This document shows, one piece after another, positions 7,691-51,145 of a stretch of DNA of 64,000 nt. Location: assembly GCA_020629005.1 (NCBI GenBank), contig JAHDEE010000004.1:1-64000 (forward strand). Reading direction: 5' to 3'. The notes beneath the pieces are model-generated. The model was not told the DNA's origin. It ran no database searches and worked only from the letters and a program-made list of their open reading frames with translations. The first letter of the stretch is position 1. Every line of letters begins with the position of its first letter. The DNA comes from Chitinophagales bacterium. GTDB lineage: Bacteria; Bacteroidota; Bacteroidia; Chitinophagales; UBA2359. Made by a program: the position numbers and the translations under genes.

Positions 7691-7900
7691 GATTGAAGCG
7701 GTATGAGCCGCCGGCCAGTGCGTGTGAGGCATGCGCTATGGGGGCTCGGAGCCTGCGGAGAGACCACATAGCGCATAAGCCGAACCACGCTGGACAAGGT
7801 GAATAATAGCGGAAAGCCCGACCCCTGCCCGGCCTAATGGCTGCTGCGGAAAGAGGCGAAGCCGATTGAAGTAGCAGCCATTAGGCCGGGCAGGGGGTAG
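7691..7900 (+). ncRNA. structured intergenic element, copy A (with perfect 24-bp hairpin)
   Basis: One of four related elements in the window. It opens with GAAGCGGTATGAGCCGCC. Stem P1 pairs CCAG/CGTG (7715-7724) with CACGCTGG (7786-7793). Stem P2 pairs ATGCGCTATG (7731-7740) with CATAGCGCAT (7767-7776) and encloses GGGGCTCGGAGCCTGCGGAG and AGACCA. AAGCCGAACC joins P2 to P1, and AATAGCGGAAAGCCCG follows. A third stem P3 is a perfect 24-bp inverted repeat, 7822-7845 with 7873-7896, around a 27-nt loop. Short open frames on both strands here (7585-7806 and 7597-7797) look like by-products of the palindromes. Function unknown; it fills most of a 432-bp gap. Confidence 0.7.
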
Positions 7901-7914
7901 CCCCAAAAAAACAT

Positions 7915-7922
7915 TACCTTAG
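7915..7922 (+). promoter_or_regulatory. candidate -7 box for the coiled-coil gene
   Basis: TACCTTAG matches TAnnTTTG in all but one position and lies 14 bp before the ATG at 7936, with an A-rich stretch between. It follows directly on structured element copy A. Confidence 0.4.
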
Positions 7923-7935
7923 CAAAAAAAAGAAG

Positions 7936-8472
7936 ATGTCATTGGAAAAACCGACCAGATTTAATGAGAAGCATTTCGAGTTGTTGCAGTCGATATTGGA
8001 GCGAAACAATAAGGCTGGCTATGATTTTTGGGAGTACAGGAAATCGGTAGAGGCTTTGGAATCGATGGATATGGATGAGCAGATGCGTTTTAAATCGGCT
8101 TATGCTACTGGTTCTACGATGGGGGCTACCAAAGAGGGTTTGCTGAAGAGTGTGGATCATTATACGACTGTGCTCAAAAATGAGGAGCACAAATTTACGA
8201 GTAGTTTGCAGGCGTCGATTCAGGAAAAAGTGGTGGCGAGGGAAGATGAGATTCGGCAGATTAATGCGGATTTGCAAAAGAAGAAGGAGCTGGTGGAGCA
8301 ACTAAGTGCTGAAATTGAGCAATTGAGTGTGCGGAAGCAGAAGGTGTTAGAGGAGGTAAAAGGAAGCAGTGAGAAGATTGAAACGACCAAGTTGCAGTTT
8401 CAGGAAACACTGCGGTATATGGTTACGGAGATGCTTTCGTTTAAAGAAAAAATGGAGAAATATCTGGGCTAG
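7936..8472 (+). CDS. conserved hypothetical coiled-coil protein
   Basis: A 178-residue cytoplasmic protein without signal peptide or membrane segment. Residues 1-85 are helical and rich in charged residues (KHFELLQSILERNNKAGYD, YRKSVEALESMDMDEQMRFK, AYATGSTMGATKEGLLKSV); residues ~95-178 form a long coiled coil (EIRQINADLQKKKELVEQL and onward, with regular heptads). The N-terminal part resembles uncharacterised Bacteroidota proteins; I know of no function. The start ATG follows a run of A residues. The Wzi-like gene begins 33 bp downstream on the same strand, so the two may be co-transcribed. Confidence 0.75.
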   Translation: MSLEKPTRFNEKHFELLQSILERNNKAGYDFWEYRKSVEALESMDMDEQMRFKSAYATGSTMGATKEGLLKSVDHYTTVLKNEEHKFTSSLQASIQEKVVAREDEIRQINADLQKKKELVEQLSAEIEQLSVRKQKVLEEVKGSSEKIETTKLQFQETLRYMVTEMLSFKEKMEKYLG

Positions 8473-8505
8473 TTGCCGCTTGTTCCTCCACCCTAGCTTG
8501 CTGAT

Positions 8506-10161
8506 ATGCGATTGAATGTTTGGCTTTTGCTCTTGTGTTTACTGGCTGGCACCTATCCCTTTCAATCAGGTTTTGCGCAGGACAGCTTCCTGCCTTTTTC
8601 CAGTTATTACGCTGATGCGGCTGAGGAACTGGAGATACGAACTGGAGCATTTGCCGATGTGCATTTGAGTCAAAAGCCGCTTTCAAGGGCTGATCTTCAC
8701 AAGCTAATCCTTCGGGATTCGACTAGCCGGATTGCTCATCGCGAACAATGGCAAAGGCACAGTCTGGAATTTTGGGCCAATTCTGAGCAATTTAGCAGTA
8801 AGCGAACGGTACTTGGACACTTTTACAAACAGCCTGCAGATTGCCTGGTTATTGATAAAGATGGGCTTGTTGTGCGGCTGAATCCGGTCATCAACTTCTC
8901 ATTTGGCAAAGAACTGGATGCCGATTTGGTTTTGCATAATGGCAAGGGAATTGACTTGAGGGGAAGCTTGGGAAAACGACTTAGCTTCCACACTTTTCTT
9001 ACTGATAATCAGACCATTTACCCAAAGTACCTCTCTGATAAGTTGAGGGCTGATACTGCGGTTCCCTATGAGGGTCGATACACTTCCTATCTCTCCAGTA
9101 CGCTGGGTGATAAGTCGGTCATTGATTATTTCAGTGGTGGTGGATATGTTCGTGTTCAGGCCTTACCACAGATGAGTATAAGCTTTGGGCATGGCAGGCA
9201 GTTTCTTGGCGATGGATTGCGATCGCTGATGCTTTCGGATTATTCTAATGCCCGGCTTTTTCTACAGTTTCGGACTAAGGTCTGGAAGCTGCAATACCAA
9301 AATTTGTTTACAGAACTGATCGAGCAATTTGATGGGCCAAATGATCAGTTATTGAAACGGAAATACATGGCCACTCATCATCTGAGCATCCATGCGCGGC
9401 CCTGGTTGAATATTGGCCTTTTCGAATCGGTTGTGTTTTCCAGAGAAAATGGATTTGATCTCAATTACCTTAATCCACTGATTCTTTACCGTTTTATTGA
9501 GCATCAATTGGGCAGTCCGGACAATGTGCTTGTGGGCTTGAATGCCAAGGCGCTTTTGCTTAGGCACTTTGCCCTCTATGGTCAGTTGGTTTTTGACGAA
9601 TTTTCCTTTTTCAAGCTGAAGGATGAGCCAGATTGGTGGGCAAACAAGTTTGGGATTCAGTTGGGTATTCGTGGCGACGACTTATTGTTAGAGGGCCTGC
9701 ATTTGCAATTGGAATGGAATCGATTGCGCCCGTATACCTACACTCATGACGATCCGAAGATTAACTATACGCATTATAATCAGCCGCTGGCACACCCGCT
9801 CGGAGCCAATCTACGTGAGTTGATGCTCAAGTCCAATTACCACATCGGGCCAAAGCTCAGCTTGCAGGCTCGTGCTGCATTGATGTGGCAGGGTCTGGAT
9901 GCAGATAGCAGCAACTATGGCGCTAATATCTTTCTGTCGAACAGTAGCAGGGAATCGGAATATGGCGTAGAGATGCTACAGGGCACAGAAAGCCTGACAA
10001 GGTATGCTGATTTGGCTATCAGCTACCAGTTCAAACATAATTGTTTCGTGGATTTCAATGCTACTTTGCGCAGTCAGGAATACCTTGGGGTAAGAGCAGA
10101 AACAGTGATTATTGGGGCTGGGATCAGAGTGAATTCAATCCGTCGCCGAATCATTCTTTAG
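8506..10161 (+). CDS. Wzi-like capsule assembly outer-membrane beta-barrel protein
   Basis: A 551-residue exported protein; the signal peptide ends at GFAQ (residue 24). The rest is beta-rich with alternating hydrophobic residues, as in an outer-membrane barrel. The block FGHGRQFLGDGLRSLMLSDYS (~235-255) matches the conserved segment of the capsule assembly Wzi family, whose E. coli member is a lectin-like barrel that holds capsule at the surface. Bacteroidota carry many Wzi-family proteins that need not handle capsule, and no polysaccharide export genes are nearby, so the substrate is unclear. Its stop codon overlaps that of the convergent MerR gene by 4 bp. Confidence 0.8.
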   Translation: MRLNVWLLLLCLLAGTYPFQSGFAQDSFLPFSSYYADAAEELEIRTGAFADVHLSQKPLSRADLHKLILRDSTSRIAHREQWQRHSLEFWANSEQFSSKRTVLGHFYKQPADCLVIDKDGLVVRLNPVINFSFGKELDADLVLHNGKGIDLRGSLGKRLSFHTFLTDNQTIYPKYLSDKLRADTAVPYEGRYTSYLSSTLGDKSVIDYFSGGGYVRVQALPQMSISFGHGRQFLGDGLRSLMLSDYSNARLFLQFRTKVWKLQYQNLFTELIEQFDGPNDQLLKRKYMATHHLSIHARPWLNIGLFESVVFSRENGFDLNYLNPLILYRFIEHQLGSPDNVLVGLNAKALLLRHFALYGQLVFDEFSFFKLKDEPDWWANKFGIQLGIRGDDLLLEGLHLQLEWNRLRPYTYTHDDPKINYTHYNQPLAHPLGANLRELMLKSNYHIGPKLSLQARAALMWQGLDADSSNYGANIFLSNSSRESEYGVEMLQGTESLTRYADLAISYQFKHNCFVDFNATLRSQEYLGVRAETVIIGAGIRVNSIRRRIIL

Positions 10162-10514
10162 GAGCTGCTCTGTGAAGGCGGCATATTATCTCTGATTTGC
10201 TCCAGGAAAAGTCTCACTTTTTTGAGCGATCGCACCATATCAAACTTATCATCGCTTAGTTTTTTACGATTTTTCAGTTGCTTCTTGGCGCCATCCAGTG
10301 TGTATCCTTTTTCCTTAACCAGATGATAAATGACTTCAAGTATTTCTATATCTTTCTTAGTAAACAGTCGGTTGCCCTTCCTGTTTTTCTTTGGCTTAAT
10401 GGCATCAAACTCCTTTTCCCAGAAGCGAATCAGCGACCTCGAGACGTCGAATCTGTCGGCCACCTCCCCTATTGAGAAATAGATTTTGGTTACTTCGTGC
10501 TCCTTATATGGCAA
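10158..10514 (-). CDS. MerR family transcriptional regulator
   Basis: A 118-residue DNA-binding protein. Residues 10-80 are a MerR-type winged helix: YFSIGEVADRFDVSRSLIRF, WEKEFDAIKPKKNRKGNRLF, TKKDIEILEVIYHLVKEKGY, TLDGAKKQLKNRK. This variant, with FWEKEF instead of YYE and an R-x-G-N-R-x-F wing, is the compact MerR type typical of Bacteroidota. Only ~30 residues of dimerisation helix follow and there is no cysteine-rich effector domain, so it probably does not sense metals. Target genes are unknown. It converges on the Wzi-like gene with overlapping stops. Confidence 0.9.
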   Translation of the reverse strand: MPYKEHEVTKIYFSIGEVADRFDVSRSLIRFWEKEFDAIKPKKNRKGNRLFTKKDIEILEVIYHLVKEKGYTLDGAKKQLKNRKKLSDDKFDMVRSLKKVRLFLEQIRDNMPPSQSSS

Positions 10515-10655
10515 GGGTAATAAGTTTTAGTTACTACTAAAGTAAAACATTTCCCCTAAAATTCACGCCTTTCTTAAACATAAATCGCTAATATCCTGCA
10601 AGATAGAGCCGTTATCTCATCAAAACTTGTAAAGATCGCATAACAAGGGCCTCGA

Positions 10656-11942
10656 TCAGCTGTATATGCCATTCTCATGTGCAAAGGCTACCACCTTCTC
10701 GTCGGCGAATATGTCGCTGGGATTCAGAGGCTTGGTTAGGCTAATTCCTTGCAGGGTAGTACAACGACTAAGGGCAACATACACCTGACCTGCCGCAAAA
10801 GCCCCTCTACCGAGGTCTATAACGATATTTTCGAAAGTCTTGCCCTGACTCTTGTGAATCGTTACCGCCCAGGCCAATCTAATGGGATACTGCTCAAAGG
10901 AACCGACCACTTCGGACTCGATTTCCTGTTTCTTTTGATTGAAGCTATACTTCCGCATTTCCCACACATCCCTTTGAACATCATACCGTTGCACCTTGTC
11001 CGCCTCCACAATCTCTACCATGATATAATCAGTGCCCAGCTCGCAGATTCGCGCAAGTGTTCCATTGACCCATCGACCATCCATATCATTGCGCACAAAC
11101 ATGACCTGAGCATCGACTTTCAGTGTCAAAATTTCGTCGGTCGGCAGCTGCATTTTTCCTACTTCCCCCTCTTTGATTCCCTTATAACTGAAAAGCTTTG
11201 AGGGCAACCGGTTCAAGCGATTCTCATTGATTTTCCTGGCCATGTAATTTGTAGCAGTTAGGATAATCGTATTCTCCGTCCAGGTGATTCCATAGGGACC
11301 CCGATAAGCTTTGTTGAGCGCATTTATGATCTTGCTGCCGGCATTTCCTACACGAACCTGATTCAGCAAATGCACAAAATCCTGATTCAATTGACGGAAT
11401 ACCCGGCTAAGTTCATAGCACTGCAAGGGGGCTCCCTGCAAGGCATAGGCGCTAAAAAAGAAGGGCGAATAATACTGCATATCCAGCAGCTGCTGCTCCA
11501 CTTCGGAAGAAATTACCGGTGGCAACTGAAACAGATCTCCAATCATGATCATTTGAATACCGCCAAAGGCCTTGTCTCTCCTCGGTCCATTCTTCTTGAG
11601 AAACAGATTTATATTGTCCAGCATATCTGCTCTCACCATCGAAATTTCATCGATTACGATGGCATCCAGATTTTTGTAGATACTATCATCCTTCCGTTTC
11701 TTGATTTCTCCTGCCTTCATAGGTCTTGGAGGAAATCCAAAAAATGAATGAATTGTTTGCCCTCCCACATTTAGGGCAGCAATACCGGTTGGAGCCAATA
11801 CAACAATTCGCTTGCTGGTCATTTTTCTAAAGTAGGTGAGCAGGGTAGATTTCCCTGTTCCGGCTTTACCTGTAAGAAAGACATGGTCTTTGCCATATTC
11901 CATCATATCAAAAGCCTGTTCAAATTCCGGGGTAAAATTCAT
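10656..11942 (-). CDS. PIF1/RecD-like superfamily 1 DNA helicase
   Basis: A 428-residue ATP-dependent helicase of the PIF1 group. The Walker A motif GKAGTGKST is at ~24-32, motif Ia is VLAPTGIAALNVGGQTIHSF (~48-67), Walker B is IVIDEISMVRADMLDNI (~94-110), and MIMIGDLFQLPPV is motif III (~130-142). Near the C-terminus AVTIHKSQGKTFENIVIDLG and VYVALSRCTTLQGISL are motifs V and VI. This short form has only the helicase core; longer Bacteroidota relatives add C-terminal domains. It likely resolves structured DNA during replication or repair. The aldo/keto reductase gene lies upstream on the same strand, separated by a strong terminator. Confidence 0.9.
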   Translation of the reverse strand: MNFTPEFEQAFDMMEYGKDHVFLTGKAGTGKSTLLTYFRKMTSKRIVVLAPTGIAALNVGGQTIHSFFGFPPRPMKAGEIKKRKDDSIYKNLDAIVIDEISMVRADMLDNINLFLKKNGPRRDKAFGGIQMIMIGDLFQLPPVISSEVEQQLLDMQYYSPFFFSAYALQGAPLQCYELSRVFRQLNQDFVHLLNQVRVGNAGSKIINALNKAYRGPYGITWTENTIILTATNYMARKINENRLNRLPSKLFSYKGIKEGEVGKMQLPTDEILTLKVDAQVMFVRNDMDGRWVNGTLARICELGTDYIMVEIVEADKVQRYDVQRDVWEMRKYSFNQKKQEIESEVVGSFEQYPIRLAWAVTIHKSQGKTFENIVIDLGRGAFAAGQVYVALSRCTTLQGISLTKPLNPSDIFADEKVVAFAHENGIYS

Positions 11943-11952
11943 GAGAAACTAA

Positions 11953-11992
11953 AAACATAAAAAATCGCCAATTCTCCTAAGAAAATTGGCGA
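11953..11992 (-). terminator. intrinsic terminator of the aldo/keto reductase gene
   Basis: Arms TCGCCAATT (11965-11973) and AATTGGCGA (11984-11992) flank a 10-nt loop. Read on the minus strand the stem is followed by TTTTTTATGTTTTTAG. It lies 38 bp downstream of the reductase stop and before the helicase start. Confidence 0.8.
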
Positions 11993-12029
11993 ATGATTAA
12001 CATTGACTTTAATAGAAATCTTCCCTGAT

Positions 12030-13019
12030 CTAGAAGATAGGTTGCTGCGGTTTGTTGCCCAATACCTTGTCAATCTTGGCCATCATATCATCATTCAGCA
12101 GTTCGGCAGCTTCAAGGGCTTGTAGATTTTCCTGCAACTGAGATAATTTCGAAGCACCTAAAATCACCGTGCTCACATTTGGGTTCTTCAGACACCAGGC
12201 CAAGGCCATTGTAGTCATACTCATTCCGTTGCGCTTGGCCTGCCTTCCCAGCTTTTTCACAATTTCAATTTTCTCCTCGACGTAGATTCGGTCCTTCAAC
12301 CACTCATAACCCTTCACAGCCAGGCGACTATCTTTTGGAATGCCTTTATTGTACTTCCCTGTCAGCAAACCAGAGTACAGAGGAGACCAAATAGTGGTAC
12401 CCATGCCAAAATTCTTATACAATTGATTGTAATCAACCTCAAATACTTTGCGATGAAACATATTATACTGCGGTTGCTCCATCAATGGCCCAATCAGGTT
12501 GTACGCCCTTGCCACAGAATGAGCTTCAGTAATCTCCTGGGCACTCCACTCTGAGGTACCCCAATAGAAAATCTTGCCCTGCTGTATAAGCGTATTCATC
12601 GTCCGTACCGTCTCCTCAATGGGCGTGGTTTTGTCCGGACGATGGCAGAAAAACAGATCCAGATACTCTACTTGCAATCTATCCAAAGCCTCATGACAAG
12701 CCTCCATGATGTGCTTTCTACTCAGTCCCTTTTGTGTTGGCCATTGACCACCCCGACCAAAGTAAACCTTGCTGGATACAATATAAGAACTCCGGTCCCA
12801 GGCAAGCTCTTTGAGCACTTCACCCATAATTCGCTCCGACTCGCCATGTGCATACACCTCAGCATTGTCAAAGAAATTGATCCCATTCTCATAGGCCGTA
12901 GCCATCAATTCGGTAGCCTTTGGTATGTCTACCTGCTTTCCAAAAGTAACCCAGGATCCCAGCGATAAAGCACTTACCATCAAACCCGATCGACCTAGAT
13001 TTCTATACTGCATTTCCAT
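12030..13019 (-). CDS. aldo/keto reductase, Kv-channel beta-subunit-like
   Basis: A 329-residue TIM-barrel NADPH-dependent oxidoreductase. The catalytic tetrad is visible: Asp in FFDNAEVYAHGESE, Tyr four residues on, Lys in SYIVSSKVYFG, and His in DLFFCHRPDKTTP. The C-terminal cofactor segment VSTVILGASKLSQLQENLQA is normal. The closest families are the KvBeta/YghZ group, which reduce small carbonyls such as methylglyoxal. It has its own terminator and diverges from the HMG-CoA lyase gene over 126 bp. A TAACTTAG box near 13050 on the minus strand could be its -7 element. Confidence 0.92.
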   Translation of the reverse strand: MEMQYRNLGRSGLMVSALSLGSWVTFGKQVDIPKATELMATAYENGINFFDNAEVYAHGESERIMGEVLKELAWDRSSYIVSSKVYFGRGGQWPTQKGLSRKHIMEACHEALDRLQVEYLDLFFCHRPDKTTPIEETVRTMNTLIQQGKIFYWGTSEWSAQEITEAHSVARAYNLIGPLMEQPQYNMFHRKVFEVDYNQLYKNFGMGTTIWSPLYSGLLTGKYNKGIPKDSRLAVKGYEWLKDRIYVEEKIEIVKKLGRQAKRNGMSMTTMALAWCLKNPNVSTVILGASKLSQLQENLQALEAAELLNDDMMAKIDKVLGNKPQQPIF

Positions 13020-13131
13020 TTGTCAATTCATATTTTGGTTAAAGATTTGCTAAGTTAAGATTTTCTGGATCGCAGACTCTGAGCCTGAAGACGACAGCAT
13101 ACCGGAGAAACATTTACTCATCAAAAAGAGC

Positions 13132-13139
13132 TATCTTTG
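13132..13139 (+). promoter_or_regulatory. -7 box 6 bp before the HMG-CoA lyase start
   Basis: TATCTTTG fits TAnnTTTG exactly and ends only 6 bp before the ATG at 13146, so the transcript would have almost no leader. This also argues for the ATG at 13146 rather than the in-frame TTG at 13137, which lies inside the box. Confidence 0.65.
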
Positions 13140-13145
13140 CCCGAG

Positions 13146-14021
13146 ATGAACGCCACAAAAGTCAAAATAATCGAGTGTCCGAGAGATGCCATGCAGGGTC
13201 TGGATGACTTCATCAAAACTGAGGACAAGATCCGTTACATCAATGCCTTACTGCAAGTAGGTTTTGACACCATCGATTTTGGCAGCTTCGTATCGCCCAA
13301 GTACATCCCGCAAATGAAGGATACACCAAAGGTGCTGGCTGAGCTGGAGGTGGAAAATTCTGACAGTGAATTACTCGCAATTGTGGCCAACCTTCGAGGA
13401 GCCAAGGACGCGATTTTCTATGACAGAATTCAATATATTGGCTATCCATTCTCTATTTCCGAGACCTTTCAGAAGCGAAATGCCAACGCAAGCCTTGAGA
13501 AATCTCTGGAAACTGTAGCCGATATAAAAGACCTCTGCGATCTGGACAACAAACACCTTGTGGTCTACCTCTCGATGGCTTTTGGCAATCCCTATGGCGA
13601 TTTTTGGGATCCGGCACTGGTGGAGCACTGGGTAGATCGGCTCTACAGCATGGGCATCCAAACCATATCGCTTTCCGACACTATTGGAGTGGCCAATCCG
13701 AAGGTAATTTCAGAAATTTACCATATCATATCGGTGGATTTTCCTGACTTGGAGCTAGGGGCACACTTCCATTCTCATCCGCATAATTGGGAAGAAAAAA
13801 TCGCTGCCGCCTTCGAAGCCGGTTGTCGAAGATTTGATGGAGCAATAAAGGGTTACGGAGGCTGCCCCTTTGCAAAAGATGATTTGCTAGGCAATATTGC
13901 CACGGAAAATCTCATCATGTATTTGGCCGGACAAGGGCTAGAGCTGAACATCGATATGGAAGCCTTTGCAACTGCCATGAAAATCGCCTCCGAAGTCTTT
14001 CCACAGAAGACTACGGCATAA
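13146..14021 (+). CDS. hydroxymethylglutaryl-CoA lyase-like enzyme
   Basis: A 291-residue HMGL-like TIM-barrel lyase, which in the known family cleaves 3-hydroxy-3-methylglutaryl-CoA to acetoacetate and acetyl-CoA in leucine breakdown. IIECPRDAMQGL (~7-18) is the family's PRDGLQ segment with the catalytic Arg and Asp. SLSDTIGVANPKVI is typical, AHFHSHPHNWEEK replaces the common HxHD metal site with a histidine-rich version seen in Bacteroidota homologues, and GYGGCPFAKDDLLGN keeps the active-site cysteine. The start is ATG 13146. No other leucine pathway genes adjoin it. Confidence 0.87.
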   Translation: MNATKVKIIECPRDAMQGLDDFIKTEDKIRYINALLQVGFDTIDFGSFVSPKYIPQMKDTPKVLAELEVENSDSELLAIVANLRGAKDAIFYDRIQYIGYPFSISETFQKRNANASLEKSLETVADIKDLCDLDNKHLVVYLSMAFGNPYGDFWDPALVEHWVDRLYSMGIQTISLSDTIGVANPKVISEIYHIISVDFPDLELGAHFHSHPHNWEEKIAAAFEAGCRRFDGAIKGYGGCPFAKDDLLGNIATENLIMYLAGQGLELNIDMEAFATAMKIASEVFPQKTTA

Positions 14022-14074
14022 AATTCGTCATTCACCGCAGTCCAATATTTTATTTTTTAGGAGCGAAACGCCTT

Positions 14075-14245
14075 CCCTACGTGGAAACGGACTCCCCGTG
14101 CTACGCTTGTATAAGCAGCACCGCTGCCTGTTCATGGTCAGCCCAGCGGGTCTCTCCGTAAACTCCGAGCCCCCCTGGGCCGCCATTCACCACGGCAGCG
14201 GCACTACTTATACCACTTCGCCCGCGGCTATTTTGCCACTATCCC
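14075..14245 (-). ncRNA. structured intergenic element, copy C
   Basis: Reverse-strand copy of the repeated element. Read on the minus strand it starts ATAGCCGCGGGCGAAGTGG. Stem P1 is 20 bp long (plus-strand positions 14194-14213 with 14109-14128): 17 Watson-Crick pairs and 3 G-U pairs on the minus strand, which would be A-C mismatches on the plus strand. Inside, GCCCAG/CTGGGC (14175-14180 with 14141-14146) is P2, enclosing GGGGGGCTCGGAG and GGAGAGACCC. After P1 comes ACAAGCGTAGCACGGGGAG, shared with copy D. It lies 3' of the HMG-CoA lyase gene in a 920-bp gap. Confidence 0.7.
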
Positions 14246-14252
14246 CCTCGCG

Positions 14253-14291
14253 AAACCAGAAAAACAGCGCAGTCCTGGTTTTTCTTTTTGG
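14253..14291 (+). terminator. candidate terminator downstream of the HMG-CoA lyase gene
   Basis: Arms AAACCAG (14253-14259) and CTGGTTT (14275-14281) with a 15-nt loop are followed by TTTCTTTTTGG. The stem is short and the loop long, and it lies 230 bp after the gene, beyond element C. Confidence 0.45.
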
Positions 14292-14811
14292 CAAGGAAAT
14301 TACATTTATAAGTGGCGGATATGCTCAATCAAGCAAGATTTCGTTCAAGCACAACAATAGCCTCAAATGAGTCAAAATTTGGTCATTCCTGCGCAAAAAA
14401 ACCTGTCTAATAATTAGACTTGGTAAAGGCACTTAACGCCATGAACAAAGCAAATAATTCTAGACTGATCCCTTCTTATGCATAGCACAATCACTCATTA
14501 AATAAATCCTTAGGCTTCTTTACGCATAACCACTACTTATATTCGATTGTCATCACTGGAACACATAGACATTACTCTCAATCATTACAAAAGCGCAAAA
14601 CCCCACAAGCCATTCAAATACAGCTATTTCATGCATAGATGCAAGAATTCAATTTAAGTCTGACCTAATAGTTCACATTAATAGCCCCCTCAATGTTATT
14701 TTCTTTTTCATGCGGATTTAGTTTTCAAGTGGCGCTAAAATGTGAGTCCACAGACGGTATACGAATCTCAAAAATGTCCCTCTCGAATTCTAATAAATAG
14801 CCTGTAAGTCT
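14292..14811. other. AT-rich gap with no recognised gene
   Basis: About 520 bp between the terminator after element C and the promoter of the giant adhesin gene. I find no open frame of gene-like length, no tRNA and no repeat here. The sequence is AT-rich and could be upstream control DNA for the adhesin gene or decayed sequence. Confidence 0.5.
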
Positions 14812-14819
14812 TAACTTTG
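14812..14819 (+). promoter_or_regulatory. -7 box for the giant adhesin gene
   Basis: TAACTTTG fits TAnnTTTG exactly and lies 122 bp before the ATG at 14942. No clear -33 TTG is seen at the expected distance. Confidence 0.5.
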
Positions 14820-29502: not shown

Positions 29503-29647
29503 ATGCTATACTCTTCAAAATTCAAGCCGATTCCTATTCTTTCACGATAGGCTAACGACATTTAAACAACGAAAAGTATGGGCAATTAGTTGTGGAGCTT
29601 TGTTAGGAAGCTGCTGCTACATGACACAAAGGCATTAATGTGGCAGG

Positions 29648-29850
29648 GATAGAAGCGGAACGAGCCGCCGGGGATAGCGAGTGAGGCGTGCCGGATGGGG
29701 GCTCCGACTTTAGGAGGAGACCACAGCCGGCAACAGCCGAACCGCTAGCCCCAAGGTGAGTATTAGCGGATAGCCCGGCGAGCAGGTGCACAGGCATAGT
29801 ACCAGCTTTGTTGTTGAGTCATTTGGTTTCGCCTGTGCAACTGCGCGGCC
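29648..29850 (+). ncRNA. structured intergenic element, copy B
   Basis: Forward copy closest to copy A. It opens GAAGCGGAACGAGCCGCC. P1 pairs GGGG.TAGCG (29670-29679) with CGCTA.CCCC (29743-29752) with one mismatch, P2 pairs TGCCGG (29689-29694) with CCGGCA (29727-29732), enclosing GGGGGCTCCGA and GGAGACCACA. ACAGCCGAACC and TATTAGCGGATAGCCCG follow as in copy A. P3 pairs 29782-29795 with 29831-29844 (13 of 14 positions) around a 35-nt loop. The stem sequences differ completely from copy A. It lies in the 381-bp gap between two minus-strand genes. Confidence 0.7.
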
Positions 29851-39210: not shown

Positions 39211-39238
39211 CTTAAGCAAAATTTTGATCTATAAATTT

Positions 39239-41259: not shown

Positions 41260-41269
41260 AGTTCTTTGC

Positions 41270-42877: not shown

Positions 42878-45800
42878 TATGGCCCCTCAATTTCTTCGGT
42901 TTCCAGATATTCTGAAGGCTTATCTGTTCCGATAGTTTGCAATTTACTTTTGGATTTCTCTTTTGCTTTTACCTGTTCCAGCTTTTGATTGACATCACGC
43001 AGAATTGCTTGATCCGAACCCTTATAGCCATTCTTTATGCTTAGCAATGTTTGTTTAGCCTGATACAATTCTCCTTTATGCTCATAATAGTCAGCCAACA
43101 GGATGTAACTTCGGACGAACCAGTTTTCGTTTCCCGGTGCCTCATTAATAACTTTGTATGCATATTCCTTGCATTGTTCCCATCGATTTTGGCGCTTGTA
43201 AATATCTGCCAGCAAATAGCGAGATTCCGCACCCATATCATTAGTAGTCAGAGGTACCACTTTCCCTAAATATTCGGCTGCTTTGGATATGCTGCCGCGA
43301 TCATAATGTGAGCGACCTGCATAAAAGTTAGCTTCGATAATGTCTTTTTCAGTCACGTCTTTTCGAGAAAGAATAGCACCGGTGTACTTATCTACTTCAG
43401 ATGTTTTTTTGAGCTTGAATGCCGTTCGCATCAGCCCACGCAAAGCCTCTAAGGAATAAGTTCTTTTCAAGGCATTTCGTTCCAGCTTCTCGTAGTACTC
43501 ATATGCTTTTGTATAATCCTTTCTCTGATAGTAAGCAATCCGTGCGGCCTTTTCCAGCGCCCTTTCCATGAACAAATCATTTCCATTCCTGATCACCGCA
43601 TCATAATCTTTTATTGCATCGTTGTAACCGGCACTCTCGTATAGACATTCTCCTCTATAGAAATGGGCATATACGATATATGCGCCATTCGGAAAGTCCT
43701 TCAAATACCGATTGAGTGAGTTGATCGTTCCTGTGCAGTCTCCCTTATCGTAGTAAGATTCTGCAGCCTGAAATGCAACAGCGTCCGCTTGGGAGCTGCT
43801 AACGTCTATTCCAAGCGACTTCATCTTCTTTCTAAATCCTTCGGAATCTCCCGAGGCTATGTAGACGTCCTGAAGCCCAGACAAAGCAGCCTGGGACTCA
43901 GCTGATTTGGGATACTTTCTCAAAACCTCTTCATAATACCTGATGGCCTGACTATTCTTATTTGTATTATAATTGATCAAGCCAAGATTGATCAGTGCCT
44001 GAGCCCGCTTGTCAGAATCAGGATAGGTATCAACCAGTCTTTGAAAAGTCGAAATTGCATCAGCGTAACTGCGGCTATTCAAGTGCGTTTGACCAATCTG
44101 AAATACGGCATCATCACGATATGATGACTCCGAATAACTCCGTTCCACCTCATTCATTAAACGAACCTTTTCAGCCGGATTCCTTTGCAGACCAGCTATA
44201 AGTCCCTTTTGATAGGTTGCATAATCAGCTCCCTCCCCTCTCTGGTCCAGGACTTGCTGATAGATTCCGGAAGCCTGACTATAATCTCCTGAAACAAAAT
44301 AGCAATCCCCTCCTCGAAGCATCGCATCGACAGCAACTTGCTTGCTTAATTTGCCGCTCTTTCCGCTTAGGCCGTTAACTGCACTCCTAAAGTGTTCACC
44401 GGCAGATGCATATTTCTTCTGATTCAAATAAGCGTAGCCGATCGTGTAGTCAGCCATCGCTGGGGAAACCTTTTCAGAAAGAGAACGTCCCCCGCTTTGA
44501 AACTCCTTCATTGTAGAGATCGCACGCTTGTATTTGTCCTGTCGAAAGTAAATATCTCCTTTCCAAAATCGAGCAAGTGAAGCGAGCTCACTACTGTGAG
44601 AATTTTGGATCGCCTTGTCAAACATCGGCAAGGCCTCCTCATACTTTCCATTACTGTACAATTCAATCCCATTGTAACAAGCCATCTTTTGATAAGTCTG
44701 CGTCATTCGGCTCGAACGATTTGGGATACTTTCAATGATCTCCATTGCCTCAGAATAATTGGAGTAGTTTTCTAACACTTCGCCAAGAAGGTCTTTGGCC
44801 TGCAAATTCCGACCTGAAGCCGGATACAAAGCGATAAAAGTTCTGAGGGCCTCCACTGCCTCACTATCAAATCCCATTTCATAAGACAGCTTTGCATGGT
44901 TAAATGCTGAAGTCTCTTTGATGATGGGGTCAAAATTCATTTTAGATGCGGATGAAAATGCATGACGGGCTTCGGCCTTTTCTCCAGTCTTGAGATAACA
45001 AGCAGCAAGATGATATTGTGCGTTTTGTCCTAAAGTATCTTCAAGGGTATTTAGATCCTTGAAGTTCCGGATAGCATCTCCATACTGTCCAAACTTATAT
45101 TGCGTATAAGCAAGTTGGTACAAATCTTCTTTCCGCACCTTTGAAGAGTTGTCAACATAGTACTTGAGATACGGAAGCGCCTTTTCAAACTGCTTCTGAT
45201 TGTAATATGTCTGACCCAGGATGTTATTGATCTCCTTGCGGAATTTCAGCCCGTTCCGCTTTAGCACTGGCTCGGCATAGTTGGCTAATTCATCGTTTCT
45301 ACCCCATGTGTACAGGATCTGGATAATGTAATACGGAACTGTCTTTGAATACAGCTTATCGTTTTCAATTTGGCGAAAACTATCCATAGCCTTTTCATAG
45401 TCATCTTTCTCAAAGGCGATATACCCTACATAATAGTTTGCTGCAGCTCGGTAATCATTGGGAAAGTTCGCAATCTGCTCAAATAAAGGCTGAGCCTGAT
45501 CAAACTTTTTGAATATAAAATAGCTATAAGCTTGCCTAAAGTAGAAGTCCTGAAGATACTCCGGACCCAGATAACTTACATCCACCTTCTCGTAGTACTG
45601 TATTGCGTTTTTGTACTTTTTATTCTCATAGTAATGTTGTGCAATCTGAAAATTGCATTCTGCTGCTAGCCTGCCTCTACCGGGATATTGATTTATGATC
45701 TGAATAAACCCCAAAACGGCATCCGGATTTCCAAGATGCTTTGCAGACATCGCCCCTAAATACATCGCGGTCTCCCGGCGCAAAGTCCAATCCTCCCCAT

Positions 45801-45996
45801 GATCGTACTCTGTTTCACTCAAGAAGGTGCGAAACTCTTTTTTAGCTAGCGTATAGTTTCCTCTCTGATACCAATCAATAGCGCTCTTATATCTATGATC
45901 TGGATCAGTGTAAATCATGTTTTCCTGTGCCTGCAAAATGGGCGACGCGAAAAGCAGAGAAATGGAGATTAAGATAAGTAGTATCCTGAATCGCAT
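42877..45996 (-). CDS. large exported tetratricopeptide repeat protein
   Basis: A 1039-residue protein with signal peptide (MRFRILLILISISLLFASPI, cleavage near LQAQ). Nearly all of the mature chain is TPR-like helical repeats: ALPYLKYYVDNSSKVRKEDL, AVEALRTFIALYPASGRNLQ, AISTFQRLVDTYPDSDKRAQ, AIRYYEEVLRKYPKSAESQA, and others, about 25 in all. The C-terminus is a charged tail (KAKEKSKSKLQTIGTDKPSE). Such periplasmic scaffolds gather partner proteins. It begins the operon with the barrel and HU/SPOR genes, and a -7 box lies 57 bp upstream. Confidence 0.9.
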   Translation of the reverse strand: MRFRILLILISISLLFASPILQAQENMIYTDPDHRYKSAIDWYQRGNYTLAKKEFRTFLSETEYDHGEDWTLRRETAMYLGAMSAKHLGNPDAVLGFIQIINQYPGRGRLAAECNFQIAQHYYENKKYKNAIQYYEKVDVSYLGPEYLQDFYFRQAYSYFIFKKFDQAQPLFEQIANFPNDYRAAANYYVGYIAFEKDDYEKAMDSFRQIENDKLYSKTVPYYIIQILYTWGRNDELANYAEPVLKRNGLKFRKEINNILGQTYYNQKQFEKALPYLKYYVDNSSKVRKEDLYQLAYTQYKFGQYGDAIRNFKDLNTLEDTLGQNAQYHLAACYLKTGEKAEARHAFSSASKMNFDPIIKETSAFNHAKLSYEMGFDSEAVEALRTFIALYPASGRNLQAKDLLGEVLENYSNYSEAMEIIESIPNRSSRMTQTYQKMACYNGIELYSNGKYEEALPMFDKAIQNSHSSELASLARFWKGDIYFRQDKYKRAISTMKEFQSGGRSLSEKVSPAMADYTIGYAYLNQKKYASAGEHFRSAVNGLSGKSGKLSKQVAVDAMLRGGDCYFVSGDYSQASGIYQQVLDQRGEGADYATYQKGLIAGLQRNPAEKVRLMNEVERSYSESSYRDDAVFQIGQTHLNSRSYADAISTFQRLVDTYPDSDKRAQALINLGLINYNTNKNSQAIRYYEEVLRKYPKSAESQAALSGLQDVYIASGDSEGFRKKMKSLGIDVSSSQADAVAFQAAESYYDKGDCTGTINSLNRYLKDFPNGAYIVYAHFYRGECLYESAGYNDAIKDYDAVIRNGNDLFMERALEKAARIAYYQRKDYTKAYEYYEKLERNALKRTYSLEALRGLMRTAFKLKKTSEVDKYTGAILSRKDVTEKDIIEANFYAGRSHYDRGSISKAAEYLGKVVPLTTNDMGAESRYLLADIYKRQNRWEQCKEYAYKVINEAPGNENWFVRSYILLADYYEHKGELYQAKQTLLSIKNGYKGSDQAILRDVNQKLEQVKAKEKSKSKLQTIGTDKPSEYLETEEIEGP

Positions 45997-46498
45997 TCAG
46001 TAAGTATTTCAAAACAGTGCAGAATCTATTGCCTTACCAGCTACAAAACCAGCAAAGTTACTCAAGAATTCAAGCCACTTTCATAACAAAAATGGGTAAG
46101 ACTGCGGAAATATAGGAATAATATTTGTCAAAACGAATAAGGCTAGAGGCCACTTCCCGCCGCTTCGCAGCGAACTGACGGAGCAAGAAATCAACTAGTG
46201 AGTAGCGTGAATTGACACATACTACTGATATACCGTAGTTTAGCGCCTAAAAAACGAATTTCATCTGCTATAAATTGTTGATCCTTAGCTGAGTTGGATA
46301 TTTATTGAGAAGTAGGGATTTAAGCCCAATACTGAATCAATGGAATGAGAAGTCGTTCAAACGATTCAGTATTCTGTGCCCAGGGCATTAGCGTCATTCC
46401 GCAAGTGCCATTGATCCCCTGCAAGCAAAGGCTGGAAACAGCCGCTTTTGCATTTGGCAACAGGCACTTCCAATAGTTACGTGTGATGTTATAGGCCA
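45997..46498. other. 502-bp gap with promoter and no recognised gene
   Basis: Besides the -7 box at 46053-46060 and a possible small coding frame (46320-46499), I see no gene, repeat or RNA in this gap between two minus-strand genes. Confidence 0.5.
46053..46060 (-). promoter_or_regulatory. -7 box for the TPR/barrel/HU-SPOR operon
   Basis: On the minus strand TAACTTTG fits TAnnTTTG exactly, 57 bp before the start of the TPR gene at 45996. A good -33 TTG at the usual spacing is not obvious. Confidence 0.6.
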
Positions 46499-46499
46499 T
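46320..46499 (-). CDS. possible small protein overlapping the TonB receptor stop
   Basis: An ATG at 46499 overlaps the TGA stop of the TonB-dependent receptor gene by one base (TGATG), opening a 59-codon frame. The product (MAYNITRNYWKCLLPNAKAA at its start) has four cysteines or tryptophans in short order but no signal peptide, membrane segment or known family. The overlap suggests coupling, but a frame this short can arise by chance. Confidence 0.2.
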   Translation of the reverse strand: MAYNITRNYWKCLLPNAKAAVSSLCLQGINGTCGMTLMPWAQNTESFERLLIPLIQYWA

Positions 46500-48784
46500 C
46501 AAAAGGTAAGCGAGACGCCAAGACTTGGTAGTAAGGGCAGTTGATTTACCCGATCATATCGCACTCTATCGAAATAGAAAATATTTGCTCGGTCATAAAC
46601 ATTTGTTGCACTTGCAATGGCCTCTAGCTGAGAGTCCCCAAAAAGAACCCAGGACTTCTTCAACGATAGGTCCATCCGATGATAGTAGGGCAACTGGCCT
46701 CGATTCAACTCGTCCTCATAGAGAATACCGAGATTTCCGTTTGCAGTATTCAAATCAGTGTTGAGTCCATCATTGAAACTCAACTCCTCATAAAAGCCTT
46801 GAGTCTTGGTGAATGGGAACCCTGATCCCAAATTCCACCTTACACTAAATTCCCAATTCAAAGCAGGACCAAAATTGTAGGCTCCCAGGAAATTCAGGTT
46901 ATGTCTTCGATCGAAATGAGGAGGATACTCCTGCCGGCCATTGTCTCGATTCACAAAGCTATAGGAGTATACACCCCAAACATACCAGTTCTTGAAATCG
47001 TATTTAGCGAGGAAATCGATTCCATAGGCATTTCCCTCTTCGGTGACATAGTCAGGATCGGTTGGGAATAACTTGTCACGATTGATATTGATCAGTTGTG
47101 GATAGCCCTTGTAGTAAGACTCCACGTTAAATGTCAATGATCGGGTAGGTTCAAATTCTACCCCTCCAATAAAGTGATAAGCAGTCTGCAGATTATTATT
47201 CGACTTGTTCCCTTCGATATCCAACAAACGCTCCTCCGGAGCTGAAAGAAAGCCAGTAAACAAATTCACGACATCCTGATCAGACTTTGTACTGATAAAG
47301 TTCTGAGTATAAATTCCTGTGGCTGCCTTAAATCGCAGTTTGTTTGAAGCATTGTACTTCATTCCAAATCTCGGTTCAAATCCAACATCTGAAAGAGAAG
47401 CATAGTAATTGAGCCTCAGACCAGGCTCAATAAGAAGTTTCCCGTTGGCAAGAATACCTTTGTACTTGAGAAAACCACCCAACTCCGTCGTATTCTCGTT
47501 TTGGTCAATTTTTAACCCAAGCGCATTAAAAAACTCGAAAGTAGTGGCAAATCCGCCCACATTGATACCATACTTGATATCCCCATTTCGCAGAAAGTAA
47601 GAACAAACAAGATCCAGATTGAATCCGCCAATAGTCGAAGTCCTGGGCTTTTGATCTGCCTCAATCAATTCCATCGAATATTGAGAATAAGAAAAATGAC
47701 CATCTATAATCACCTTGCTGGCACCTGGCACTATAATGAAATTACTGCCGCCACCGAAGGCATCCCAGCCAAACAGTGAGCTACCGTTGTAATCCACTTG
47801 ATCTTTCTGACTATACCCTGAAAGACTAAACTTCGAGCCACTGTTACTATTCATAGACAGCTTTCCATAGAAATCCGTAAAAGTAAATGGCAGACCTTCA
47901 GGATCTATATACTCATACAAGGTCTTAGAGGTCTGATCCAAATAAGAGTGTTTCACCGCTGCCACATACGAGATGCTTGTACCATTCTCCTTCAATTTAG
48001 AAATAGGACCTTCCAAAATCCCTTTTACCATAAATGGACTGGCAGCAATCTTTCCACCCATTTCATTTTTGTTTCCATCCTTTGTCGCAACATCAACAAC
48101 TGCGGAAATTCTACCTCCGTGCTCGGCACCAAATCCGCCGGTCATCACATCCACATTCTTAATGATCTCGGTCTCAAAAATCGAGAATAGGCCTATGGAG
48201 TGAAAAGGATTATAAACCGTAATACCGTCCAACAGCATCTTGGTCTGAATAGGAGAACCACCCCTTATGTATAACTGCCCTCCTTGATCACCAGTAAATA
48301 CAACACCAGGAATCACCTGCAGGTATTGCGCCAGGTCGGGCTCCCCTCCTACTGAGGGTATCTTCTCAATTTGCTTTGGAGAAACCTTAATCGAAGACAT
48401 CCTAACCTCTGTCTTCGCTTCCTGCTTTGCCGCCGAAATCTCGACTGCAGTCAACATCACCCCACTCTCAGTGATAAAAAGCTTTTGGTTGAGGATCTGC
48501 CCTGCTTTCAAAGTAATAGCAACTCTCGCTGTATCATATCCAACATAGGTAGACACCAGCGTATAGTCCCCGGCCGGAACTTGAGAAATCGCGTACAAAC
48601 CCTCAATATCCGTAGAGGCTCCCATAGTGGTGCCCTCCAAATATACATTGGTAAACAGTATTGGCTCACCGCTGTCCTTATCGTATACAAAGCCTCGAAT
48701 ATCTCCCGTTTGAGCATTGGCTAATAAACAGACAAAAAGCCCAATAAGGCTAAGTAAACAGTTCAACAGTGATTTCCCTGGCAT
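46499..48784 (-). CDS. TonB-dependent receptor with carboxypeptidase-like regulatory domain
   Basis: A 761-residue outer-membrane receptor. Signal peptide to LLANAQ (~25); a carboxypeptidase regulatory-like domain at ~27-110 (GFVYDKDSGEPILFTNVYLE, GLYAISQVPAGDYTLVSTYV); a plug domain at ~120-235 (SVGGEPDLAQYLQVIPGVVF, LYIRGGSPIQTKMLLDGITV); then the beta-barrel, ending in VSLTF. The family takes up siderophores, vitamins or oligomers using TonB; the ligand is unknown. No SusD partner is adjacent, so it is not a typical glycan locus. It lies 21 bp downstream of tsaC on the same strand. Confidence 0.92.
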   Translation of the reverse strand: MPGKSLLNCLLSLIGLFVCLLANAQTGDIRGFVYDKDSGEPILFTNVYLEGTTMGASTDIEGLYAISQVPAGDYTLVSTYVGYDTARVAITLKAGQILNQKLFITESGVMLTAVEISAAKQEAKTEVRMSSIKVSPKQIEKIPSVGGEPDLAQYLQVIPGVVFTGDQGGQLYIRGGSPIQTKMLLDGITVYNPFHSIGLFSIFETEIIKNVDVMTGGFGAEHGGRISAVVDVATKDGNKNEMGGKIAASPFMVKGILEGPISKLKENGTSISYVAAVKHSYLDQTSKTLYEYIDPEGLPFTFTDFYGKLSMNSNSGSKFSLSGYSQKDQVDYNGSSLFGWDAFGGGSNFIIVPGASKVIIDGHFSYSQYSMELIEADQKPRTSTIGGFNLDLVCSYFLRNGDIKYGINVGGFATTFEFFNALGLKIDQNENTTELGGFLKYKGILANGKLLIEPGLRLNYYASLSDVGFEPRFGMKYNASNKLRFKAATGIYTQNFISTKSDQDVVNLFTGFLSAPEERLLDIEGNKSNNNLQTAYHFIGGVEFEPTRSLTFNVESYYKGYPQLININRDKLFPTDPDYVTEEGNAYGIDFLAKYDFKNWYVWGVYSYSFVNRDNGRQEYPPHFDRRHNLNFLGAYNFGPALNWEFSVRWNLGSGFPFTKTQGFYEELSFNDGLNTDLNTANGNLGILYEDELNRGQLPYYHRMDLSLKKSWVLFGDSQLEAIASATNVYDRANIFYFDRVRYDRVNQLPLLPSLGVSLTF

Positions 48785-48805
48785 CTTGAAATGTTAATTC
48801 TCTTT

Positions 48806-49435
48806 CTAATAAATCAATTCTCCTCTACCCTCTCTGATGATCTCTATCGGATCTCCCGTAGCATCAACAACCGTAGAAGGGTCATCATACACAAAACCGC
48901 TATCGATGACCATATCCACAAGCTTGTAGTATTTCTCATAAATCAACTCTGGATCGCTCCTCAAACTTGCATCATCATCACCACCATTCAAGGACGTGCT
49001 AAGTATGGGTCTGCCAAGCAAACGTACAATTTCCCTTGGCACATTATGATCAGGTACCCTTATGCCTACCGTCCTTTTATTCGACTTAAAAAGCTTCGGA
49101 ACCTCCCTACTAGCATTTAGGATAAAAGTAAACGGACCCGGCAAATTCTTTCGCATTACTTTATACACCGATTTGTCATAATTGCTGGCAAAGTCTGCAA
49201 GGTGACTCAGATCATGACATACAAACGAAAGCTTAGCAGCCCCTGACTTAATTCCTTTGATCTGACACACTTTCTCAACTGCCTTAGAATTGAAAATGTC
49301 ACAACCTAATCCATAAATCGTATCCGTAGGATAAATAATAACCCCACCCTTTTGCAAACATTCTACCACCTGCTCTATCTTCCTCTCTTGAGGATTATCT
49401 GCATTGATTCTCAATAGCATGGCTCCTTTTTTCAT
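48806..49435 (-). CDS. tsaC: L-threonylcarbamoyladenylate synthase TsaC/Sua5 family
   Basis: A 209-residue enzyme that makes threonylcarbamoyl-AMP from threonine, bicarbonate and ATP, the first step to t6A37 in tRNA. CLQKGGVIIYPTDTIYGLGC (~28-47) is the family motif, KGIKSGAAKLSFVCHDLSHL the KxR/S region, KRTVGIRVPDHNVPREIVRL and PILSTSLNGGDDD the SxN end of the active site. It lacks the C-terminal Sua5 domain. The start may be the ATG at 49420 (MLLRINADN). The TonB receptor gene follows at 21 bp. Confidence 0.92.
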   Translation of the reverse strand: MKKGAMLLRINADNPQERKIEQVVECLQKGGVIIYPTDTIYGLGCDIFNSKAVEKVCQIKGIKSGAAKLSFVCHDLSHLADFASNYDKSVYKVMRKNLPGPFTFILNASREVPKLFKSNKRTVGIRVPDHNVPREIVRLLGRPILSTSLNGGDDDASLRSDPELIYEKYYKLVDMVIDSGFVYDDPSTVVDATGDPIEIIREGRGELIY

Positions 49436-49509
49436 TCCACAAATTCAAAATTGTCTTCTCGTCAAAGACTAAAATTTCGAGTCAAATCACTCAGTTGTGA
49501 GCTGCCACT

Positions 49510-49554
49510 AAAAAACGGCTTCAAGCTATCAAATAATTTGATGCTAAAAGCCGT
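49510..49554 (-). terminator. intrinsic terminator of sucC
   Basis: ACGGCTT (49515-49521) pairs with AAGCCGT (49548-49554), and AGC/ATCAAAT with ATTTGAT/GCT inside, giving a long stem. On the minus strand it is followed by TTTTTAG. It lies 33 bp after the sucC stop. Confidence 0.8.
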
Positions 49555-49586
49555 CTTCACTTTTAATGGTATTCTTTTAACGTTCT

Positions 49587-50783
49587 TTAACCTTGCTCTA
49601 GCACTCCCTGAACCTTTTCTGCTGCTTCCTTTAGCAAGATCGCAGAATGCACTTTCAATCCGGACTTGTCAATTATTTCTTTGGCTTCTTCCGCATTGGT
49701 TCCCTGCAATCGCACGATAATCGGCACTTTGATTTCTCCTATATTTTGATAGGCATCAACAACCCCTTGAGCCACTCGATCACAACGCACAATACCACCG
49801 AAGATATTAACCATGATGGCCTTCACCTGCGGATCTTGCAAAATGATTCGAAAGCCAGCCTCCACAGTTTTAGCATTGGCCGTGCCCCCAACATCAAGGA
49901 AGTTTGCCGGCGATCCACCAGCAAGCTTGATGATATCCATGGTCGCCATAGCAAGCCCGGCACCATTTACCATACATCCCACATTCCCATCAAGCTTGAT
50001 GAAGTTAAGATTATGCTTGCTCGCTTCCACTTCCGTAGGATCTTCCTCACGCACATCCCGCATACCAGCTATATCCTTATGTCGGTAAAGGGCATTATTG
50101 TCAACAGTTAGTTTGCTATCAACCACAACCATCTTATTATCAGAAGTCTTTAGCAATGGATTAATTTCCAACATGCTGGCATCCAGCTTCAAATAAGCCT
50201 GATACAACTTCCCTATAAACTTGGTCATATCCTTGAACGCAGCTCCACTGAGCCCCAGATTGTAAGCAATCTTTCTGGCTTGAAATGGTAGTAGACCAGT
50301 CGCCGGATTGATGCTCTCAGTATAGATATCCTCAGGCGATTCCTCAGCTACCTCTTCGATATTCATTCCACCCTTAGGCGAATACATCACCATATGCTGA
50401 TGATTCGCACGATCCAGCAAAAAGCTTAGATAAAATTCTTGTGGCTCACTCTCTCCCGGATAAAACATATCCTCTGCAACTAGCACACAATGCACCGTTT
50501 TACCTTCAGCAGAAGTTTGCGGCGTCACAAGCTGCATTCCAAGTATCTGACCAGAAATCTCTTTCACATCATCCAGAGATTTAGCCAACTTTACACCTCC
50601 TCCTTTTCCACGTCCTCCTGCATGTACCTGCGCCTTAATCACCCACCATTCCGTGCCAGTGTCTGTATTAAGTTTCTTGGCAGCATCCACCGCAGCTTCA
50701 ACTGATTCAACAGCGATACCCCTTTGTGTAGGCACACCCAAACCAGCCAATAATTCTTTCGCTTGATACTCGTGTAAATTCAT
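49587..50783 (-). CDS. sucC: succinyl-CoA synthetase (ADP-forming) beta subunit
   Basis: A 398-residue TCA-cycle subunit that binds ADP/GDP and, with SucD, makes ATP from succinyl-CoA. MNLHEYQAKELLAGLGVPTQ is the classic start; AQVHAGGRGKGGGVKLAKSL is the ATP-grasp loop; LEINPLLKTSD and NGAGLAMATMDIIKLAGGSP, FGGIVRCDRVAQGVVDAYQN complete the domains. sucD is not adjacent. A TAATTTAG box at 50810-50817 on the minus strand, 27 bp before the start, is a likely -7 element. Confidence 0.97.
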   Translation of the reverse strand: MNLHEYQAKELLAGLGVPTQRGIAVESVEAAVDAAKKLNTDTGTEWWVIKAQVHAGGRGKGGGVKLAKSLDDVKEISGQILGMQLVTPQTSAEGKTVHCVLVAEDMFYPGESEPQEFYLSFLLDRANHQHMVMYSPKGGMNIEEVAEESPEDIYTESINPATGLLPFQARKIAYNLGLSGAAFKDMTKFIGKLYQAYLKLDASMLEINPLLKTSDNKMVVVDSKLTVDNNALYRHKDIAGMRDVREEDPTEVEASKHNLNFIKLDGNVGCMVNGAGLAMATMDIIKLAGGSPANFLDVGGTANAKTVEAGFRIILQDPQVKAIMVNIFGGIVRCDRVAQGVVDAYQNIGEIKVPIIVRLQGTNAEEAKEIIDKSGLKVHSAILLKEAAEKVQGVLEQG

Positions 50784-50809
50784 CTTGTGTTGATTGTTTT
50801 AAGCGGGCG

Positions 50810-50817
50810 CTAAATTA
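50810..50817 (-). promoter_or_regulatory. candidate -7 box for sucC
   Basis: On the minus strand TAATTTAG matches TAnnTTTG with one change, 27 bp before the sucC start. TTGCAAG lies a few bases upstream. Confidence 0.45.
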
Positions 50818-50989
50818 GCCACTTGCAACTTGATATCAAAATGCAAATCAAAGCATTGAATCCACCCTGCAAGCTTTCTACCGCTGTGACTGATTAATGA
50901 CAATCCCAGAGCCCATTTTGCCAGCAATTCCGCAGATATTCAAGAAGTTAGGGCTTTTTGATCATTTGGAGCGAAGCATCTCTCGGCCG

Positions 50990-51145
50990 CGGAAACGGGC
51001 TCCCCGTGCTCCGCTTGTACTCGGCACCTGCCTGCTTGTTCCTGCAAATGCAGCTGTCGTCTCTTCGCTTAAGGCTCAGAGCCGCCATCTGCATGCAGTC
51101 ACTGGCGCATTCAGGCACCTCATACCACTTCGCCCGGGGCTATCT
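50990..51145 (-). ncRNA. structured intergenic element, copy D
   Basis: Reverse-strand copy most like copy C. Read on the minus strand: ATAGCCCCGGGCGAAGTGG, P1 (plus positions 51112-51125 with 51017-51030; nine Watson-Crick pairs, three G-U pairs, two mismatches), P2 formed by TGCA-rich arms (51089-51098 with 51042-51053), the loop with GGCGGCTCTGAG and GAAGAGACGACA, and the tail ACAAGCGGAGCACGGGGAG. The three G-U pairs would be A-C on the plus strand. It lies between sucC and a hypothetical gene in a 447-bp gap. Confidence 0.7.

Follow-up and report, generated by a model that had tools for sequence, protein, structure and literature searches.

We identified an extensive family of non-autonomous elements dispersed through intergenic regions, four copies of which (A–D) are located in the window, the 64-kb stretch of DNA that was analyzed. 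The copies share one fold, their stem arms change in a coordinated manner, some of them were gained or lost between congeners, and, as judged by covariance-model searches in both directions, the family is homologous to Flavo-1 (RF01705), an abundant named motif of Bacteroidota whose function has been unassigned since 2010. New are an apical module and a near-constant core. In the lineage studied here, enlarged copies number in the hundreds; their length and loops are fixed, and their arms vary freely. We give roughly even chances to the reading that these are Flavo-1-type elements in which the folded purine-rich strand is under constraint and is recognized in trans.

Coordinates of the window copies are given in Table 1. 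The covariance model R1 was built from 30 aligned type 1 copies (alignment A1), with copies A and C included and copies B and D left out. In the window it matched copies A–D and nothing else, and thus recovered both held-out copies, which belong to the other type than the training set. Folding z-scores of the four copies, calculated for RNA as a single strand, were -3.2, -8.5, -5.1 and -4.9. The four places, and their grouping into one well-folded family, had been proposed in the earlier note, together with the motifs GAAGYGG, GGGGGCTCNGA and GGAGAGACC and with arms that are copy-specific yet complementary within each copy; all of this was correct for the window copies. The extents given there were too short, however, because copies A and C have an additional 5-bp helix and hairpin and copies B and D continue to a CGCTCCWAA tail.

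Table 1. Coordinates of the window copies and of structural parts of copy A.
Feature	Position	Strand	Basis
Copy A, whole element, type 1 (closing helix P0 to CC before A-run)	7683..7904	+	P0 GGCTA/TAGCC complementary
Copy A, core, 134 nt	7687..7820	+	R1 match, 147.1 bits, E 4e-35
Copy A, Flavo-1-like outer stem, 5' half, AAGGGATTGAAGCGG	7687..7701	+	Flavo-1 cmscan match
Copy A, Flavo-1-like outer stem, 3' half, AGCGGAAAGCCCG	7808..7820	+	Flavo-1 cmscan match; alignment and pair counts
Copy A, UGA strand of UGA/GAA (tandem G.A) internal loop	7725..7727	+	Positions invariant in alignment A1
Copy A, GAA strand of UGA/GAA internal loop	7782..7784	+	Alignment A1
Copy A, apical hairpin GGGGGCTC...GAGACC, including G.A mismatch	7740..7765	+	Alignment, pair counts
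Copy A, second arm P4, long hairpin peculiar to copy A	7822..7896	+	Sequence
Copy A, P0 3' half, TAGCC	7898..7902	+	Followed by CC and A-run up to 7911
Copy B, type 2, AATAGCC to CGCTCC tail	14058..14232	-	Pattern
Copy B, core	14095..14227	-	R1 match, 52.8 bits, E = 4.9e-11
Copy C, whole element, type 1, including P0 GTGGC/GCCAC and P4	29640..29854	+	P0 complementarity
Copy C, core	29644..29777	+	R1 match, 140.4 bits
Copy D, type 2, to CGCTCCWAA tail	50966..51144	-	Pattern
Copy D, core	51003..51139	-	R1 match, 46.4 bits, E = 2.1e-9

Two types of the element could be distinguished. Type 1 (copies A and C) is a three-way junction; its main arm and a further hairpin, P4, lie within the 5-bp closing helix P0. 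Approximately ten different P0 sequences occurred across type 1 copies (for example, GCGTG/CACGC, GGCTA/TAGCC, GTGGC/GCCAC and GCCTT/AAGGC), and in the large majority of copies for which both halves were found, these were perfect complements. The P4 sequence was unique to each type 1 copy, and the 3' end consisted of CC followed by an A/T-rich run. Type 2 (copies B and D) started with AATAGCC, ended with CGCTCCWAA and spanned ~171–179 nt; a P0-like closing helix was rejected for this type, as excess complementarity was absent (p = 0.33). The main arm is common to both types. It begins on the outside with the Flavo-1 outer stem, whose loops are purines (GAA/GGA). Further inwards follow, in this order, a stem, the invariant UGA/GAA internal loop (tandem G.A), P2, a mismatched G.A and finally the GGCUC...GAGAC hairpin. 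Core length was 130–138 nt in 53 copies, although the arms shared little sequence. Two hybrids (L009 and L015) combined a type 1 arm with the ends of type 2. In type 2 copies generally, a box resembling GCGCGATGG occurred twice, once ~20 nt upstream of AATAGCC and once within the 3' domain ahead of CGCTCC (for example, in the 5' flank of L092 and the 3' domain of L030), and judging by these boxes the type 2 arm looks as if it were flanked by direct repeats.

The earlier note could not tie the element to a named family and considered it possibly undescribed, and it suggested a comparison with Flavo-1. No Rfam family scored above its cut-off in the window. At a relaxed threshold, cmscan matched Flavo-1 to copy A (7679–7827, 17.7 bits), and cmscan matches to miRNA families, all far under their cut-offs, were dismissed as hairpin look-alikes. 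Nine weak Flavo-1 matches inspected in the source genome all corresponded to further copies of the present family. Against the full Flavo-1 model, the best four copies scored 36.4, 35.8, 32.0 and 31.9 bits (E 4e-5 to 7e-4), and model positions 1–76 were matched end to end, with 77–94 nt placed in the terminal-loop stretch. The Rfam gathering cut-off for Flavo-1 is 42 bits; no copy reached this value in a scan of the whole genome, and the copies are therefore not filed as Flavo-1 members. In the reciprocal search, the model R2, built from copies of the source lineage only, recovered genuine Flavo-1 loci of Flavobacteriia, i.e., L152 (the best, E 3.6e-9), L265, L149, L148 and L156, and the apical part was missing in the alignments of L152 and L265. 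Both groups share the outer stem with purine-rich internal loops (UAGCCCYGAUNGAAGNGG ... AGCGGANAGC), GCTCC and an A/T tail behind the stem, and many intergenic copies per genome in either orientation. They differ in that Flavo-1 has a short, simple terminal hairpin in a 76-position model, whereas ~90 nt are added in the present family (the UGA/GAA loop, P2 and the GGCUC/GAGAC hairpin). Thus, the outer stem was already known as Flavo-1, even though the scores stay under the cut-off. The Flavobacteriia locus L148 (genome G138) has a type 1 closing helix (GCATG/CATGC) and a second hairpin, and the split between types 1 and 2 therefore is older than the source lineage.

Further copies in the genome, which the earlier note had expected, were abundant. 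The source genome is a 6.9-Mb assembly of 456 contigs, in which a blastn search with copy A hit 42 places and R1 gave at least 143 matches at E <= 0.1, a floor, as scoring covered 150 candidates and copies B and D are not among the R1 matches listed for this genome. We found 26 confident copies in 377 kb of long contigs, from which raw extrapolation gives ~475 copies; since each of these contigs was chosen for holding a known copy, the estimate was set at or below this value, and the number of copies per genome is probably 350–470. The congener G148 had at least 82 copies, and other genera of the same family had from 0 to at least 82, with none in relatives outside the family. R1 had no match in 62 other Bacteroidota loci. 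Across 396 genomes of the phylum, R2 detected only the source genome and, within its class, two further genomes with a single locus apiece, and for one of these loci (L253) the alignment matches mainly the outer stem. The apical module (~90 nt) and the near-constant 130–138 nt core were seen only in the source family-level lineage among the genomes searched, and the recurrence elsewhere in Bacteroidota that had been predicted was borne out by the Flavo-1 relatives. The plasmids and phages searched for the element, as well as exact motif scans of IMG/VR and GTDB, gave no match, and the literature examined on intergenic repeats of Bacteroidota contained no fitting description.

The fold was examined in two alignments. 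The A1 structure, written from the sequences of the 30 type 1 copies, has 45 pairs; 88.2% of its cells were paired, and two-sided change occurred in 27 pairs. There were 185 two-sided cells, compared to 50 (sd 6) after shuffling and no more than 43 with partners slid. RNAalifold by itself predicted 37 pairs, 23 of them compensatory. In the larger alignment A4 (98 copies), 44 of the 45 pairs changed on both sides, with 1302 two-sided cells; shuffling left 422 (sd 19) such cells and sliding the partners no more than 225. A4 was fitted to the model and is biased towards it, and the argument for covariation is therefore carried by A1 and the orthologues. Chance or artefact is ruled out by the held-out copies and by the shuffled and slid controls. 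G-U accounted for 74 (2.1%) and A-C for 21 (0.6%) of the stem cells, and this excess of G-U indicates that the given, purine-rich strand is the one that folds.

Orthologous copies were found in the congener, whose coding DNA is ~70–75% identical. The orthologue of copy A (L138:4007-4141) is flanked by the same genes and shows coordinated changes in the inner stem, at the base of P2 (G-C to A-U) and in P4, whose sequence differs between the two and is complementary in both. The orthologue of copy B begins at a contig end (C25 of G148). Matching flanks revealed further orthologous copies, some of them less certain (L079:15764/L139:72, L083:400/L113, L019/L132 and L096:7057/L115), and at one site (L079:19771/L109) the ends match and the arm is of another subtype. 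One copy (L079:7129) was absent in the congener, and two copies (L139:15886 and L122:1500) were absent in the source genome, the comparison including an empty site. These orthologous, one-sided and arm-swapped sites indicate that the family is for the most part stable, although some copies have been gained, lost or exchanged. Target-site duplications were not readable at the divergence of the congener. That orthologous copies stay folded suggests that the host benefits from individual copies; a purely selfish element leaves this unexplained, which counts against our own best explanation.

Changes in five orthologous pairs comprised 18 double transitions, 16 flips, 2 other double transversions, 6 changes between G-U and Watson-Crick pairs, and 16 one-sided breaks. 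In these ratios, G-U intermediates appear scarce for a helix that evolves stepwise as RNA, the reference being an expectation rather than a known RNA of the same genome, and the ratios allow templating from arm to arm or exchange of arms. Covariation could largely arise at the DNA level, by arm-to-arm re-templating (quasipalindrome correction) or gene conversion, with little selection per copy. This would account for the prevalence of double transitions and flips over G-U changes, the small share of G-U among stem cells, the whole arm of another subtype at an orthologous site and the two hybrids. Templating alone, however, would also erase the invariant mismatches (UGA/GAA and G.A) and would not hold loops or length constant, and the one-sided breaks, though not dominant, likewise speak against it; we regard this reading as unlikely.

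Genes were called by a simple open-reading-frame picker. Among 50 copies of the source genome, 15 were antisense and 9 sense to both neighbours, while convergent gaps held 13 and divergent gaps another 13; the corresponding numbers for 57 Flavo-1 copies were 25, 12, 7 and 13. Orientation is therefore nearly free. A strong antisense bias appeared only in a first small sample and was discarded, as it was mostly gone with 107 copies (p = 0.31 and 0.047). In the source genome, gene starts came no closer than 118 nt to the element on its 5' side, while gene ends may abut it and element tails often lie near gene stops. This arrangement, as well as the copies kept and folded at orthologous sites, would fit an element that acts in cis for the host, either as a UTR or intercistronic part of transcripts or by forming a boundary after genes, and that protects RNA ends or limits read-through. 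The nearly random orientation to flanking genes does not agree with such a role, nor do copies of one congener that are missing at the same site in the other; in addition, terminators adjoin only 3 of 67 tails (0.3 expected), and general insertion behind intrinsic terminators was rejected on the same count. We consider a cis-acting element rather unlikely and keep it as the main rival, because the constraint on individual copies speaks for a benefit to the host. The intrinsic terminator of a convergent gene was seen to abut the A-run of the tail in L019, L031 and L009, and in L152 and L158 of Flavobacteriia. In the window, the stretch that separates copy A from the next start codon (7905-7935, AAAAAAANATTACCTTAGCAAAAAAAAGA) is near-identical in the congener and is likely a promoter directly behind the tail of copy A.

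Flavo-1 was listed in 2010 as a probable RNA that is not cis-regulatory (Weinberg et al. 2010, PMC2864571), and Rfam classes it as an sRNA gene without assigned function. Multicopy sRNA families are known in Bacteroidota: FopS of Bacteroides, a family counted at 14 members, comprises paralogous sRNAs in 12–15 copies, ~65–70 nt long and with canonical promoters (PMC11697453). The present elements, which are likewise multicopy and structured, might each be an expressed, trans-acting RNA of this kind, as their stable fold and the Rfam class of Flavo-1 would allow. They differ from FopS in having hundreds of copies and no promoter found: TAnnTTTG boxes showed no enrichment, with 5 directed towards the element and 5 away from it, and the upstream flanks differ between orthologues. 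In F. psychrophilum, Flavo-1 matches occur on either strand relative to transcribed regions, and many fall outside such regions (PMC9723704). Together, these observations make paralogous small RNAs a quite improbable explanation. The earlier note had taken conserved loops with covarying stems as the mark of a selected RNA; the covariation was confirmed in both alignments, but it does not by itself establish a functional RNA, given near-random orientation, no promoter enrichment and flips with few G-U pairs. On balance we favour DNA or a passive repeat, in view of the free orientation, the negative promoter search and the many Flavo-1 matches that are untranscribed in the case examined.

As a family of folded, high-copy, intergenic and patchily distributed sequences without a gene of their own, the elements resemble REP/BIME sequences and their RAYT (TnpA-REP) transposases, and a REP/RAYT-like or IS200/IS605-like element might be moved by a Y1 (HuH) transposase. 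REPs, however, are simple imperfect palindromes of 20–40 nt with a cognate Y1 transposase, much smaller than the present element of ~200 nt with internal loops. Moreover, no Y1_Tnp was found in G148, G153, G158 and G162, i.e., in four of the five element-rich genomes, and many element-free relatives have one. For the current partners this reading is already largely refuted, and overall we hold mobilization by Y1 to be most improbable. RVT_1 reverse transcriptases were absent from the source genome and G153. A reverse transcriptase partner was rejected, as none co-occurs with the element, and so was a derivative of a retroelement or group II intron, with no Rfam match over cut-off in the window and no RVT_1. 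Thus, of the non-autonomous mobile element considered in the earlier note, the dispersed and non-autonomous character stood and fits at least as well as a functional RNA, but no mobilizing protein was found among the Y1 transposase and reverse transcriptase candidates.

A further likeness, by description, is to the attC sites of integrons, in which the folded strand is recognized and fixed irregularities are combined with freely varying complementary arms; neither an integrase nor a cassette context was noticed with the present elements. For the reading that we prefer, a constrained folded strand recognized in trans, the constrained unit would be the purine-rich strand folded as single-stranded DNA or RNA. 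We infer that a trans-acting chromosomal factor may recognize this strand and either multiply or use the element. Copies would settle between genes irrespective of orientation, usually at a distance from gene starts, and could be long-lived. The arms of a copy would be replaced together, either through exchange with another copy or through templating of one arm by the other, and the putatively recognized loops would stay fixed. More tentatively, and with some doubt, Flavo-1-type elements in general could be, rather than RNA genes, DNA-level elements that act as a folded single strand, in which a chromosomal factor would recognize fixed internal loops on arms renewed as units, showing strong RNA-like covariation without RNA function; the enlarged form would then carry a second, apical recognition module. 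Covariation alone, when G-U intermediates are scarce, is thus not necessarily the sign of a selected RNA. The orthologous and empty sites in the congener and the presence of carrier beside non-carrier genera make it testable whether these elements are RNA, single-stranded DNA or a mobile repeat.

Additional features were observed around the copies. A stretch of contig C276 (L018, G000; 2221-2764) reads identically on both strands around a copy and is probably an assembly palindrome, and contig C25 (L138, G148) breaks off within the copy B orthologue; assemblies of this lineage are probably fragmented by the repeats. Another sequence that recurs, TTAGGGATARGGAATCAATAACTGTC(Y)GATTTTGAC, lies next to copies or interrupts them in L010 (~3311-3361, where it truncates a type 2 copy), in the 3' flank of a type 2 copy in L036 and in the 5' flanks of L009 and L032, and may be the end of an insertion sequence. 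Low-complexity runs (AAAAACCAAAAACC or AATCCCAAATCCC) were often present 5' of the elements, as in L022, L035, L036, L044, L054 and L055.
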